This document shows, piece after piece, positions 35,806 through 60,388 of a stretch of DNA of 64,000 nt; positions within the stretch are counted from its first letter, which is position 1; each line of letters starts with the position of its first letter. The notes under the pieces are model-generated. The model worked only from the letters and a program-made list of their open reading frames with translations. It did no database searches and was not told where the DNA came from. Source of the stretch: Pseudobutyrivibrio sp. YE44 (lineage in GTDB: Bacteria > Bacillota > Clostridia > Lachnospirales > Lachnospiraceae); the NCBI RefSeq assembly GCF_900104335.1, contig NZ_FMXT01000001.1:558001-622000 (forward strand), read 5' to 3'. A program made the translations under genes and the position numbers.

Positions 35806-36681
35806 CTATGCCCTGTCCCTTAACAATGCACTAAATATATGAGAAACACCCCATTTGAAATGAGTAGACTCGTCCTTCTGAAGCAATTTTGCAGCTATAG
35901 ACTCGAAACTCTTAGACGATTTACTCATAGGGTATTCCAAGGATACAACCTTTTGATTTCTAACAGCCTTCTCTAAGGAGGCATCATAAGGCACATAGCC
36001 TAAATAATCTAAATCTCCACCTAGAAATTTCTTCACCACTGATTGCATCTTCTGATAAACAGCCAAGCCTTCCGATTCGCTTGTTACCTTATTTGCTATC
36101 AAGTGTACATTTGTCCCATCCTTAAGATATTTCGAGCTTTTACACATAGCCTTCATAAGAGAATAGGAATCTGTGAGCGAGCTTGGTTCAGGAGTTGAAA
36201 CCAGCAGCACCTCAGGTGAGGCCAGTACAAACTCCAAAACCTGGTCCGAAACGCCCGCACCAGTATCTATTATAAGAATATCACATAAGTCATTTAAAAG
36301 TGATAGATTATGCACTAAAAACGTAATTTGTTCACGATTTAGATTATTTAAGCCCACAACTCCAGAACCACCAGATATAAATCCTATTCCCATAGGTCCG
36401 GTAGTAATAATATCTCTAAGGCTTCTACCATTAAAAATTACATCAGACAAATTGTAGTTTGGCAGTGTTCCAAACATAACCTCTACATTCGCAAGGCCAA
36501 AATCAGCATCTAAAATAATAACTTTCTTACCCATATTGGTGAATTGAACCGCTAGGTTAACCGCCATATTAGATTTTCCAACTCCACCTTTTCCCGAGGT
36601 AATTGTTATAACCTTAGTGTTTTCTATATTCTTGATGTTTTGAGCTTTTATAACATTACGTAAATTCTGGGCTTGGTCCAT
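35806..36681 (-). CDS. flhG: MinD/ParA-type ATPase FlhG (flagellar number regulator)
   Basis: FlhG (YlxH, FleN) controls flagellar number and position with FlhF. The 291-aa protein opens with DQAQNLRNVIK, matching the DQAxxLR helix that stimulates FlhF GTPase activity. The deviant Walker A is ITSGKGGVGKSNMAVNLA (about 28-45), Walker B is LIIDTGAGVSD, and switch segments are present. A C-terminal amphipathic stretch may bind membrane. It lies adjacent to flhF with no gap (36681/36682). Confidence 0.95.
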   Translation of the reverse strand: MDQAQNLRNVIKAQNIKNIENTKVITITSGKGGVGKSNMAVNLAVQFTNMGKKVIILDADFGLANVEVMFGTLPNYNLSDVIFNGRSLRDIITTGPMGIGFISGGSGVVGLNNLNREQITFLVHNLSLLNDLCDILIIDTGAGVSDQVLEFVLASPEVLLVSTPEPSSLTDSYSLMKAMCKSSKYLKDGTNVHLIANKVTSESEGLAVYQKMQSVVKKFLGGDLDYLGYVPYDASLEKAVRNQKVVSLEYPMSKSSKSFESIAAKLLQKDESTHFKWGVSHIFSALLRDRA

Positions 36682-44008: not shown

Positions 44009-45193
44009 TTATTCTTTGATGATTTCTGTTATACGTACTCCAAAGGATTCTTCGATAACTACTACCTCTCCTTTGGCCACGTACTTGCCGTTAACAAGCA
44101 CATCTATTGGTTCACCGGCTATTTTATTTAGCTCGATGATAGTACCGGGAGCAAAATCCAAAATATCTTGGATTGTTTTGTTGGTACGTCCTAATTCTAC
44201 TGTAACCTCCAAAGGTACGTCAAGAATCAGGTCGATATTTTCTTGTGCAAACTGAGCAGCAAATCCAGGACCAAACGGTGTGAATTGTGCAGGTTGCACA
44301 TTTATTTGAGGTCCAGGAGCATACATGTAAGGTGGTGCCATCATTGGCTGTCCTTGCATCATGTTTGGATCCATCTGCGGTGCAGCAGGTGGTGGTGCTG
44401 CAGCTGCCTGAGGAGCTGCCTCAGGAGGTGGAGCCGGTGCAGGAGCAGGTGCTGGTTCAGGAGCGCCACCGCCACCATCATCAACGGTGGATTGTGCATC
44501 TCCTTCCATGTTGCTAAGCACTGCTGCGCACATTTCCTTGGCAAGAGAGATTGGATACAACTGCATCATCTCTGAATTAACCAAGTCTCCTATTTCCATC
44601 TTGAAAGCAATTCTAACGAAGTTACCTTCAAGGAAGGCATCGATTTCACCTGGACTGATTGATGTCATATCCGTAAGTGTTGCATTAGGTGGTGAAATAT
44701 CAACCATCTTATTAAGCATGGATGATATTGATGTTGCCGAGGCACCCATCATCTGATTCATTGCCTCTGATATAGCGGAAAGATGTAATTCTGAAATCTC
44801 TGCATCAGTATTGGTTCCATCACCACCCATCATCAAGTCAGTGATAACCTTTACATCGTTTTCCTTTAAAACAAGAACGTTACTACCATCAATACCCTTG
44901 GTATAACCAATTCTAACTACAACACAATTATCCGTGTATTGGGAAGATAAATCATCCCAGTTAGTTTCTGTAACTACAGGAGTAGAAATCTCAACTTTAA
45001 TATTTACCAGTGCAAACAATGATGTTGCTGCACTACCCATACTAATATTGGCAACCTCGCCAATAGTGTCGATTTCCTGGCTAGTAAGCTCTCCGCCTCC
45101 ACCACCAGAAGAATCATCTGCTGGTGCAGCATCTGGAATTCCACCACTAAGTAGTGCATTTATCTCATCCTGTGATAATACACCGTCGCCCAT
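44009..45193 (-). CDS. fliY: Flagellar switch phosphatase FliY (FliN-type C-terminus)
   Basis: FliY joins a CheY-P phosphatase to the FliN part of the C-ring. The 394-aa protein has an N-terminal CheY-binding peptide (LSQDEINALLSGG), a glycine-rich spacer, a CheC-like domain with two active-site patterns (GEVANISMGSAATSLFALV and SEAMNQMMGASATSISSML, each with Glu/Asn), a long Pro/Ala/Met/Gln linker (about 240-305), and a C-terminal SpoA (FliN) domain (VPLEVTVELGRTNKTIQDIL). The 5' end lies 1 bp after fliM. With CheC this gives two CheY-P phosphatases. Confidence 0.96.
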   Translation of the reverse strand: MGDGVLSQDEINALLSGGIPDAAPADDSSGGGGGELTSQEIDTIGEVANISMGSAATSLFALVNIKVEISTPVVTETNWDDLSSQYTDNCVVVRIGYTKGIDGSNVLVLKENDVKVITDLMMGGDGTNTDAEISELHLSAISEAMNQMMGASATSISSMLNKMVDISPPNATLTDMTSISPGEIDAFLEGNFVRIAFKMEIGDLVNSEMMQLYPISLAKEMCAAVLSNMEGDAQSTVDDGGGGAPEPAPAPAPAPPPEAAPQAAAAPPPAAPQMDPNMMQGQPMMAPPYMYAPGPQINVQPAQFTPFGPGFAAQFAQENIDLILDVPLEVTVELGRTNKTIQDILDFAPGTIIELNKIAGEPIDVLVNGKYVAKGEVVVIEESFGVRITEIIKE

Positions 45194-58207: not shown

Positions 58208-59821
58208 TTATCCCCAATCCTCGTTTAGCCAATTTCTCAAAAGCTGAGCAACAGCTTCTGGTTTCTCATCCACAAACTTTTCAATAAGTAAGCGGGCTTC
58301 AGATTTCTCTGTATAACCAATATCTTCAAGCTCCTCCTCCTCTTCCTGAGCAGTAGAAGCAATAAGATCATCAATAGTAAGTTCTTCTTCAACAGGCTCC
58401 TCTTCCTCAACCTTAAGACTTCTAAATACAACGAAGCCAAGCATTGCAAAGATAAGTAAAGCAAGTATAATCTGAAGAATATCTGTAAGCTCGATTCCAG
58501 AGCCTTCAGAATACTGGAACATAGGAATTTCGTATGCTACTACCTTTACGTTGGCAGTTGGGAAGCCTGTAGTCCTTGCAACCACTTCAACGATGTCGTC
58601 GGATACTTCCTGCTGAACAGGATTTGAGTTGGCCTTAACGAATTCATCAAAGGTCTGTCCAGCCTCCTCAAGAGTACCATCCTTTTCCATCTTGTCTTGA
58701 TTATAAATCGCGAACTTCTTGCAGGTTACAGATATTGACGAATCCTCTAATACCTGTTTACCCATTTCATCCTTGTGAGTGGTTATTGTCTCACTTGGTA
58801 AATAATCCTTTTCAAACTCCTCTGTAGAGGTTGAAGTCTTATTCTCATCTTCTATTACATAAGTGGTATCATCATCGTTTGAATCTGTACCCGGAACACC
58901 ACCGGCACCACTTGTAGATGTAGAGCTAGAACCCGATTCACTATCAAGATAACCTTCTGTACGTCCTTCATCTACGTAGTACTTATAGTCAGTGTAAGCA
59001 TGCTCATCAAAATTCATTGAAAGATTTACACCAACAGAAACAGTATCATAAAGATTCGTGCCCTCAAGTACTGTTTGAACTCTTGATGAAATCTCGTTTC
59101 TAGCTTTATCCCTTACATCCTGATTTGCCGACGCAGCTCCAGCTGCTGTACCAGTATTAGCGTTAGGATATAAGAGGTTTCCATCTGTATCCATGATAGT
59201 AATATTGTCATCTGTCAAATTACCAAGGTTCGTAGATAGTAACTTGGCAATGCCTGCAACTGTAGCATCTGGTATAGGCTCAGAAAGTGTAAGCATGACA
59301 GTTGCGTAGCCATCTTCATTTTTAGCAATAATAGTTCCGTCATCCTCAGGAATATTTAAGGTAACATCTGCCTTTTCAACCATGTTAAGACTAGATATTG
59401 TTTTTCCAAATTTTTGTTCCAAAAGAACCTTGTATCTCTTTTGTTTATCTGCCTCTGTAGTTGAGAAGCTGCCATCTATAACATTGTCAATTGTGTAGTC
59501 TGATGTAGGGATTTCATTAGAGCCAAGAAGAATATTTGCAGCAGACAAATCCTTCTCGTTAATGTAGAAGGTAAAACCATCCTCACTAAGCTCATACTTA
59601 ATATTATTATCCTCTAAGAGAGTCTTAACAGTAGATGCTTGTTTTCCATCCTCACAAGCAATAAGTTGAACCATAGTAGGGCGTGTTATAACCACTGCCA
59701 AAATGATAAAAGACACAATAACAACAGCAGTAATTGACACAATCAATACCTGCTGCCGTCTTGTAAACTTTCTCCACCATTCTAGAAACCTATTCAGTAA
59801 AGCCTGAATTTGTTCTGGCAT
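58208..59821 (-). CDS. fliF: Flagellar MS-ring protein FliF
   Basis: FliF builds the MS-ring in the membrane. The 537-aa protein has two membrane helices (about 26-47 VLIVSITAVVIVSFIILAVV, and about 448-468 LTDILQIILALLIFAMLGFV), the YscJ-like periplasmic domain (KTLLEDNNIKYELSEDGFTF, VLLEQKFGKTISSLNMVEKA), a ring-building motif domain and an acidic low-complexity insert (about 295-330), and a C-terminal FliG-binding tail (KPEAVAQLLRNWLNED). The ATG has a GGGGGA site. It is separated from fliE by the unusual structured gap. Confidence 0.97.
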   Translation of the reverse strand: MPEQIQALLNRFLEWWRKFTRRQQVLIVSITAVVIVSFIILAVVITRPTMVQLIACEDGKQASTVKTLLEDNNIKYELSEDGFTFYINEKDLSAANILLGSNEIPTSDYTIDNVIDGSFSTTEADKQKRYKVLLEQKFGKTISSLNMVEKADVTLNIPEDDGTIIAKNEDGYATVMLTLSEPIPDATVAGIAKLLSTNLGNLTDDNITIMDTDGNLLYPNANTGTAAGAASANQDVRDKARNEISSRVQTVLEGTNLYDTVSVGVNLSMNFDEHAYTDYKYYVDEGRTEGYLDSESGSSSTSTSGAGGVPGTDSNDDDTTYVIEDENKTSTSTEEFEKDYLPSETITTHKDEMGKQVLEDSSISVTCKKFAIYNQDKMEKDGTLEEAGQTFDEFVKANSNPVQQEVSDDIVEVVARTTGFPTANVKVVAYEIPMFQYSEGSGIELTDILQIILALLIFAMLGFVVFRSLKVEEEEPVEEELTIDDLIASTAQEEEEELEDIGYTEKSEARLLIEKFVDEKPEAVAQLLRNWLNEDWG

Positions 59822-59891
59822 TTAGATTCCCCCTTTATTGTAGACTTTTTCTCGGTGCTAAAGCACCTACTTGGCTAAGGAACATTATCCT

Positions 59892-60085
59892 TGTTACTAT
59901 TCAAACTGACTTCACAAGCATTCATAATGGAAAGCTTTCAGCTTTCTTTCCCGGTGCTTTGCACCTAACATTATTCATGCTTGAGAAGTCACTGATTCCA
60001 GTTATGAAATATTTAATTAGCATTCTTTTATAAGCAAGCTTAACAAGAATTGCTCCTTAAATATTTCAAACTTTGAATAGTAACA
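59892..60085 (-). ncRNA. Cloverleaf-like structured element between fliE and fliF
   Basis: TGTTACTATTCAAA (59892-59905) and TTTGAATAGTAACA (60072-60085) form a perfect 14-bp closing stem. Arm A pairs 59908-59929 with 59969-59990 (19 of 22 match) and carries two tip hairpins, GAAAGCT/AGCTTTC and GGTGC/GCACC. Arm C is a small ACTG/CAGT hairpin (59991-60002). Arm B pairs TGAAATATTTAA (60005-60016) with TTAAATATTTCA (60057-60068), perfect over 12 bp, with inner stems. All 194 bases are used. The stem touches the fliE stop. A further GGTGC/GCACC hairpin (59854-59867) lies nearer fliF. Function unknown. Confidence 0.6.
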
Positions 60086-60388
60086 TTAGACCTGCATCTG
60101 CATGATCTGCTGATATGCATCGAGAATTCTATCTCTTACTGCAACTGTATACTGCAGTGCAATATTTGCCTTCTTTTCAGCAATCATCAAATCATGAGTG
60201 TTATCTGTCTCACCCAATGCAAAGGCAACCTGTTCCTGATTCGCCTTTTTAATCTGAGCATTGGTATCATCCATAAGGTTCATAACAGAATCAAGCATGC
60301 TCTGAAAACCTTTTTTAGGATCAACCTTTGTATCCTCATTAGTGATAGGTGTTGTACCATACAATCCATGAATAGCAGAAATACTCAT
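60086..60388 (-). CDS. fliE: Flagellar hook-basal body protein FliE
   Basis: FliE joins the MS-ring to the rod and is the first exported rod substrate. The 100-aa protein has the family C-terminus ANIALQYTVAVRDRILDAYQ then QIMQMQV, and a middle NQEQVAFALGETDNTHDLMI. It lies 47 bp after flgC. The cloverleaf-like element starts exactly at its stop codon. Confidence 0.97.
   Translation of the reverse strand: MSISAIHGLYGTTPITNEDTKVDPKKGFQSMLDSVMNLMDDTNAQIKKANQEQVAFALGETDNTHDLMIAEKKANIALQYTVAVRDRILDAYQQIMQMQV

Follow-up and report, generated by a model that had tools for sequence, protein, structure and literature searches.

The flagellar genes fliE and fliF of Pseudobutyrivibrio sp. YE44 are set apart by a 194-bp element with an extensive predicted fold, raising the question of whether this element serves the flagellar operon or reached its site as a mobile sequence. 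It lies within the stretch of DNA analyzed here, a window of 64,000 nucleotides. In the following, genomes are labeled G and loci L, with G000 being the genome that carries the window copy.

We determined the fold of the region 59880–60097 and compared it with 200 dinucleotide shuffles, obtaining z-scores of −9.43 for the minus strand and −10.61 for the plus strand, with no shuffle reaching an equal value. The view taken in a sequence-only reading, that this region is more organized than a random spacer, thus holds. Folding of the minus strand, which that reading had put forward as a check, recovered a four-way cloverleaf, in which 150 of the 194 bases of the element form 75 pairs, all of them Watson–Crick and none G-U. 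The predicted perfect 14-bp closing stem (59892–59905 / 60072–60085) was confirmed, as were inner stems of 12 bp (outer stem of arm A) and 4 bp (arm B), while the third stem, given as 22 bp, must correspond to arm C including its internal loops (Table 1). The exact element has a minus-strand fold energy of −77.2 kcal/mol, whereas 194-nt stretches drawn at random from the window plus strand (n = 397) averaged −35.4 (sd 8.3, minimum −69.1). This energy is not unique in the window, as a plus-strand scan in 50-nt steps reached down to −89.8 kcal/mol per 194 nt at 44301, within 44251–44544, the strongest plus-strand fold of the window. A further inverted repeat of 14–15 bp in 36001–36350 was dropped, being located inside a coding gene. 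The ORF list contained no reading frame of at least 60 aa in the element, and neither the element nor 11 related loci matched an Rfam family at gathering score, the sub-threshold matches being weak.

Table 1 Features of the fliE–fliF region of the window
Feature	Position	Strand	Details
fliE	60086–60388	−	PF02049, E 9.3e-26; stop codon adjoins the element
Whole cloverleaf MITE copy	59892–60085	−	194 bp; orientation of the family model
Closing stem, 5′ half (terminal inverted repeat)	60072–60085	−	one paired change relative to the family GTTACTATTCACAG, C-G to A-T
Closing stem, 3′ half (terminal inverted repeat)	59892–59905	−	perfect 14 bp with 60072–60085
Arm A	60005–60068	−	12-bp outer stem (60057–60068 / 60005–60016), inner helices of 4 and 5 bp, 4-bp tip hairpin in TTAAGCTTGCTTAT
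Arm B	59991–60002	−	4-bp hairpin ACTG/CAGT (59999–60002 / 59991–59994)
Arm C	59908–59990	−	6+7+6-bp stem with small internal loops, two tip hairpins (59953–59965 and 59930–59946; 5 and 7 bp)
Probable remnant of a different hairpin block, outside the cloverleaf	59843–59885	−	likeness by eye to the same gap in other species
fliF	58208–59821	−	PF01514, E 5.9e-42; next operon gene

The closing stem begins directly at the fliE stop codon (60086–60088), as the sequence-only reading had stated. Its gap of 194 bp has to be enlarged, since the distance from the fliE stop to the fliF start at 59821 amounts to 264 nt, of which the element takes 194; the other 70 nt contain the fliF ribosome-binding site and what looks like a piece of a further hairpin block. 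Of the 29 genomes of the genus, 27 gave a FliE match, and the fliE–fliF gap was readable in 26. The cloverleaf occupies this gap only in G000 and G027 (2/26); G025, whose FliE is the most similar (96%), lacks it and has a gap of 53 nt. Gap lengths of 19–66 nt were observed in 15 of the 26 cases. A conserved role for FliE and FliF is therefore unsupported. The tree does not resolve the fliE copies of G000 and G027, whose common tip variant is also present in L019 of G001.

Nine of the 26 gaps contain other inserts, which begin at the fliE stop or just past it. Two of these are ended by TTCTATTCA (L193 in G001 and L174 in G012), six have a GTGCC/GGCAC hairpin or likeness to it, and one is partly masked. 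The G001 insert has a z of −9.4 and resembles a cloverleaf in its fold, with arm B missing. A second hairpin block, CATGCTTTTT..., with GTGCC/GGCAC and GGTGC/GCACC hairpins, resides in the gap of about six species (L177, L180, L189–L192), and window positions 59843–59885 seem to retain a piece of it. With one copy of this block as query, 8 of the 29 genus genomes searched gave a match, G000 not among them, and its fold yielded a z of −3.7. The simplest reading of these inserts is that the first bases past the fliE stop are the sole free room before the fliF ribosome-binding site.

The element is one member of a dispersed family. G000 itself holds six full-length copies together with fragments, as identified by DNA search, with one of the six being full-length by the model only. 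The other copies share 72–80% identity with the window copy and have like folds, L002 having been folded without its left end, which leaves the closing stem incomplete there. Among the six, 30 of 78 consensus pairs contain a sequence altered on both sides. Within the genus, 21 of the 29 genomes, G000 counted, gave a DNA match, confined to 31 nt in G004 and G023. A model built on the six own copies (R1) matched 42 of 299 sampled family genomes at E 1e-3, with up to eight matches per genome, and a model of 37 diverse copies (R2) matched 12 of 391 genomes sampled across the class at E 1e-4, eight inside the family and four outside.

Independently of any structure, we scanned a public genome collection for two terminal repeats 148–178 bases apart and nothing else, yielding at least 115 stretches, 80 of which were listed. 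The titles of these 80 name Lachnospiraceae, Clostridia, Clostridiales, Clostridiaceae, Eubacteriales, Clostridium sp., Eubacterium sp., "bacterium" or further genera, the last of which we take to be members of the Lachnospiraceae. At E 0.01, R1 matched 74 of the 80 listed stretches, L268 weakly, and left L198, L203, L213, L231, L241 and L264 unmatched. Outside predicted long ORFs lay 78 of the 80. Shorter forms also occur, measuring 97 bp with a single arm or 46 bp with nothing but the ends, and in one nested case an element lies within another, flanked by CATTTTC. Adjoining copies, some with a common end, were observed at L076 (G267:C267), L075 (G140:C7), L078 and L079. At L071 (G009:C33, 2806–3497), these terminal repeats belong to a near-palindrome of 692 bp interrupted mid-way by an N run, which could reflect either a large foldback or a joint in the assembly. 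A plasmid search with the window element and a phage search with the L043 element gave no match. In a search of full-text literature, we recognized no description of this element family.

The sequence-only reading had also suggested that the termini could be the inverted repeats of a small non-autonomous mobile element, and this view is well supported. Among the 78 listed structure-blind stretches with enough flank, 43 displayed an 8-bp target duplication with 7 or 8 of 8 bases identical, 32 of them exact, compared to a mean of 0.9 and a maximum of 4 for shuffled partners; no exact duplication of another length between 5 and 12 was found in these stretches. The model-found set comprised 95 copies, of which 12 were left out due to unclear ends or short flanks, and 19 of the remaining 83 had the 8-bp duplication (shuffles: mean 0.4, maximum 3). 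The window copy has no target duplication at its own flanks. Its further properties are those of a MITE, as it is short, carries terminal inverted repeats of 14 bp that are perfect in this copy, encodes no transposase and belongs to a set of dispersed copies, whereas the duplication of fixed length is a property of the family. Elements of the IS4 family with matching ends were identified in G028 and G095. Based on the dispersed copies, the 8-bp duplication and these insertion sequences, whose ends are identical or almost so, we conclude that the element is a non-autonomous transposable element (MITE).

The candidate autonomous partner emerged from 40 regions beside unpaired ends, in which a second end was sought within 3.4 kb and the genes were read at L134 and L135, so that further autonomous elements may have escaped detection. 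These two loci in G028 represent one 1.7-kb insertion sequence that carries a single long ORF. At its left end, L135 is identical to the MITE over 14 bp, and at its right end it agrees at 13 of 14 positions, while the right end of L134 is damaged; neither locus has a visible target duplication. The encoded protein of 430–440 aa matches PF01609 (E 2.4e-28) and NF033592 (194.6 bits, cut-off 115), assigning it to the IS4 family. Among 30 loci of relatives examined, L323 in G095 has both ends identical to the MITE over 14 bp and a 7/8 target duplication, and several more have related ends. A partner whose ends match exactly or almost exactly was seen in two genomes only. The commonality is limited to the outer 14 bp, since the gene-less cloverleaf lacks the inner end motif CAATGTCATTWAGWTAA found in these insertion sequences. 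No IS4 relative was detected in G000 at E 1e-20, and across 299 genomes the MITE and this IS4 branch were not associated (9/42 versus 33/257, p 0.15). The link between the two is thus drawn from the ends and the duplication, and co-occurrence does not contribute to it. The arm-A tip was searched for in seven IS4 loci, giving nothing beyond two partial matches. IS66 was rejected as mobilizer, as PF03050 was present in 5 of 12 genomes and none of the 11 of 12 loci inspected had a matching end pair. A 4.7-kb end pair at L070 (G140) was likewise discarded, no transposase being recognized by eye in its ORF list.

To describe the surroundings of the family, we analyzed 20 neighbor genes of 12 other copies; each could be assigned to a Pfam family (E 1e-5), with no flagellar gene among them (0/20). 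They include genes for phenylalanyl-tRNA synthetase, a queuosine enzyme, thiolase, 3-hydroxyacyl-CoA dehydrogenase and UvrA. Another copy of G000 directly follows a flagellar rod gene by Pfam, the protein encoded before L080 being of the FlgE/F/G type; the rod-gene site is also occupied in G011, G008 and G014, as judged by the likeness of 60-nt flanks. In the tree, three of the four copies at this site cluster, with L080, L026 and L027 forming a supported clade and L022 outside, indicating that these three changed in place. The 88 copies with both neighbors, same-site copies counted apart, exhibit no preferred orientation (++ 23, −− 35, −+ 23, +− 7; sense 23, antisense 35), and neither does a set of 62 (++ 17, −− 21, −+ 17, +− 7). 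A distance of at most 10 nt was found for 12 of 58 stop-side and 5 of 84 start-side neighbors.

The fold is maintained by paired changes. In the 37 diverse copies, 72 of the 78 pairs had changed on both sides, nearly always from one Watson–Crick pair to another, and 93.5% of cells were paired compared to 31–42% in slid controls, a figure favored by the fitting of this alignment to the structure. For helix 1, formed by the terminal repeats, paired changes were present in 10 of 16 pairs. Within single sites we counted paired changes, changes to or from G-U and broken pairs, taking the structure from the first copy of each comparison. The fliE site (L001/L037) gave 12/2/8, and the rod-gene site gave 7/3/3 for L080/L026, 11/3/6 for L026/L022, 3/2/5 for L026/L027 and 7/5/15 for L080/L022; nothing is drawn from L080/L027 (2/5/14), which is misregistered by an alignment indel. 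Other sites yielded 3/0/4 (L012/L005), 4/1/3 (L078/L079), 0/1/2 (L079/L032), 0/0/1 (L018/L021) and 0/0/1 (L020/L034). The closest same-site copies thus differ solely by one-sided changes and distant ones by many paired changes. Loops changed about as fast as stems within a site (L080/L026, 6/33 versus 20/157; L026/L027, 8/36 versus 14/154; L001/L037, 7/44 versus 35/150), a pace that argues against the loops being strongly selected while a copy stays at its site.

Covarying pairs usually count as proof that an RNA is functional, and a conserved structured RNA would show frequent G-U on one strand. We compared pair types, using a strict fold with Watson–Crick pairs only that had to agree on both strands. 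In 95 copies this gave 6588 Watson–Crick pairs, 46 G-T and 31 A-C mismatches (p 0.11; by copies 31 versus 16, p 0.04), and in 74 copies from the listed structure-blind stretches, a set overlapping in part with the former, 40 G-T and 24 A-C (p 0.06). The acceptor and T stems of 45 tRNAs, left from 55 in the fetched loci and the window after removal of duplicates and poor stems, had 442 Watson–Crick, 54 G-U and 4 A-C pairs, with stem ends being counted here, unlike for the element. The strand bias of the element stems (46 versus 31) is hence weaker than that of tRNA stems (54 versus 4). In an ordinary fold of 159 distinct copies, G-U made up 411 of 11904 pairs on the modeled strand and 285 of 11796 on the other, with 88 copies leaning to the modeled strand versus 36 (p 3e-6, inflated by shared ancestry). 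We read these data as a fold kept mainly by upkeep at the DNA level, either by selection on a folded strand or by arms corrected on each other, possibly with a weaker constraint on one strand besides. Such upkeep by near-perfect paired changes is unusual among small mobile elements.

In our assessment, with a probability of about 80%, the element is a MITE that was moved in trans by an IS4-family transposase and is tolerated after fliE, its cloverleaf being maintained mainly at the DNA level. The family has dispersed copies with common ends and a target duplication, insertion sequences share these ends exactly or nearly so, and the fold extends family-wide with paired changes between as well as within sites. 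A gene-less MITE of about 130–205 bp, bounded by 14-bp inverted repeats (GTTACTATTCACAG), would be mobilized by the DDE transposase of the IS4 family under duplication of 8 bp of target, and one copy would have landed in the short gap past fliE in this Pseudobutyrivibrio lineage. There it was presumably tolerated because its position is past the fliE stop yet ahead of the fliF ribosome-binding site, and because no T-run is present at its end. The pairing would be preserved through a folded single strand during replication or transposition, through templated correction of arm on arm, or both, and probably not via selection on the mRNA of this operon.

The sequence-only reading had considered that the element sets the ratio of FliE to FliF, acts as a processing site or binds a ligand, and had pointed to the conservation of the gap as the check. 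A cis-acting RNA of this kind, which might set FliE and FliF output or mark a cleavage site, could draw on the co-directional position between the two genes, the strong RNA fold and the copies adjoining a rod-family gene, but its presence in 2 of 26 gaps, its absence even from G025, the varied and non-flagellar neighbors elsewhere, the unbiased orientation and a window copy without any G-U pair render it very improbable. Less remote, yet still unlikely, would be a mobile structured RNA whose transcript is under selection, for example because it shields or insulates the host operon or binds a protein at its tips. The modest G-U excess on the modeled strand, the nearness to stop codons and the CTTG loop at the arm-A tip (159 copies scanned, a 4-bp tip recognized in 88, CTTG in 64 of these) would fit such an RNA, but G-U is far rarer than in tRNA stems, no orientation is preferred and Rfam holds no counterpart at gathering score.

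A more serious competitor, which we nevertheless consider somewhat doubtful, is that the fold is a functionless, neutral by-product of foldback arms that are corrected on each other by template switching or exchanged as a whole among copies. That hairpins can arise and be repaired through template switching has been published (PMC8794818). This origin agrees with the nearly exclusive Watson–Crick pairing and the fairly even G-T and A-C mismatches, with the one-sided changes of the closest same-site copies beside the many paired ones of distant copies, and with the similar pace of loops and stems, as expected without selection on the tips. It is harder to reconcile with the four-arm model still matching 74 of the 80 listed structure-blind elements (a match may lack an arm), with the paired changes in the terminal repeats themselves and with the CTTG tip loop, which is common across genera. 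The arm-A tip TCAAGCTTGCTTG moreover reappears in L356 (G654) and L357 (G481), two elements that lie outside the family and have different terminal repeats. Neither templated correction nor end recognition explains this recurrence, which is the chief ground for a further proposal. In it, the cloverleaf might be a working part of the mobile element: transposition or its control would require it, either as a single DNA strand in folded form or as the transcript, its tips perhaps binding protein, and it would move as a module between elements with unrelated ends; the loops changing about as fast as the stems weaken this proposal, and we regard it as unlikely.

Folded repeats able to alter host transcripts include ERIC, Correia and REP/BIME, which we liken to the MITE by description only. 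The RUP and BOX repeats of pneumococcus resemble it as short interspersed repeats with terminal inverted repeats that pair in the fold, with target duplications and with a proposed mobilization via an insertion sequence with similar ends (PMC3049150). The present element differs in its four-way cloverleaf, which paired changes preserve in many genera, and in having an IS4 candidate partner and 8-bp duplications. For BrickBuilt, a MITE of Porphyromonas gingivalis, PMC4596501 reports long predicted stem-loops and mentions possible compensatory mutations in passing; unlike the cloverleaf, its structure is predicted from internal direct repeats.

Taken as a MITE with a fold kept mainly at the DNA level, the element provides, through covariation in mobile DNA with very few G-U pairs, a testable case for hairpin upkeep at the DNA level, and it calls for caution in covariation-based RNA discovery. 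The Lachnospiraceae gain a widely distributed MITE, for which transposition can be assayed with its candidate IS4 partner, and the element occurs in many gut and rumen bacteria.
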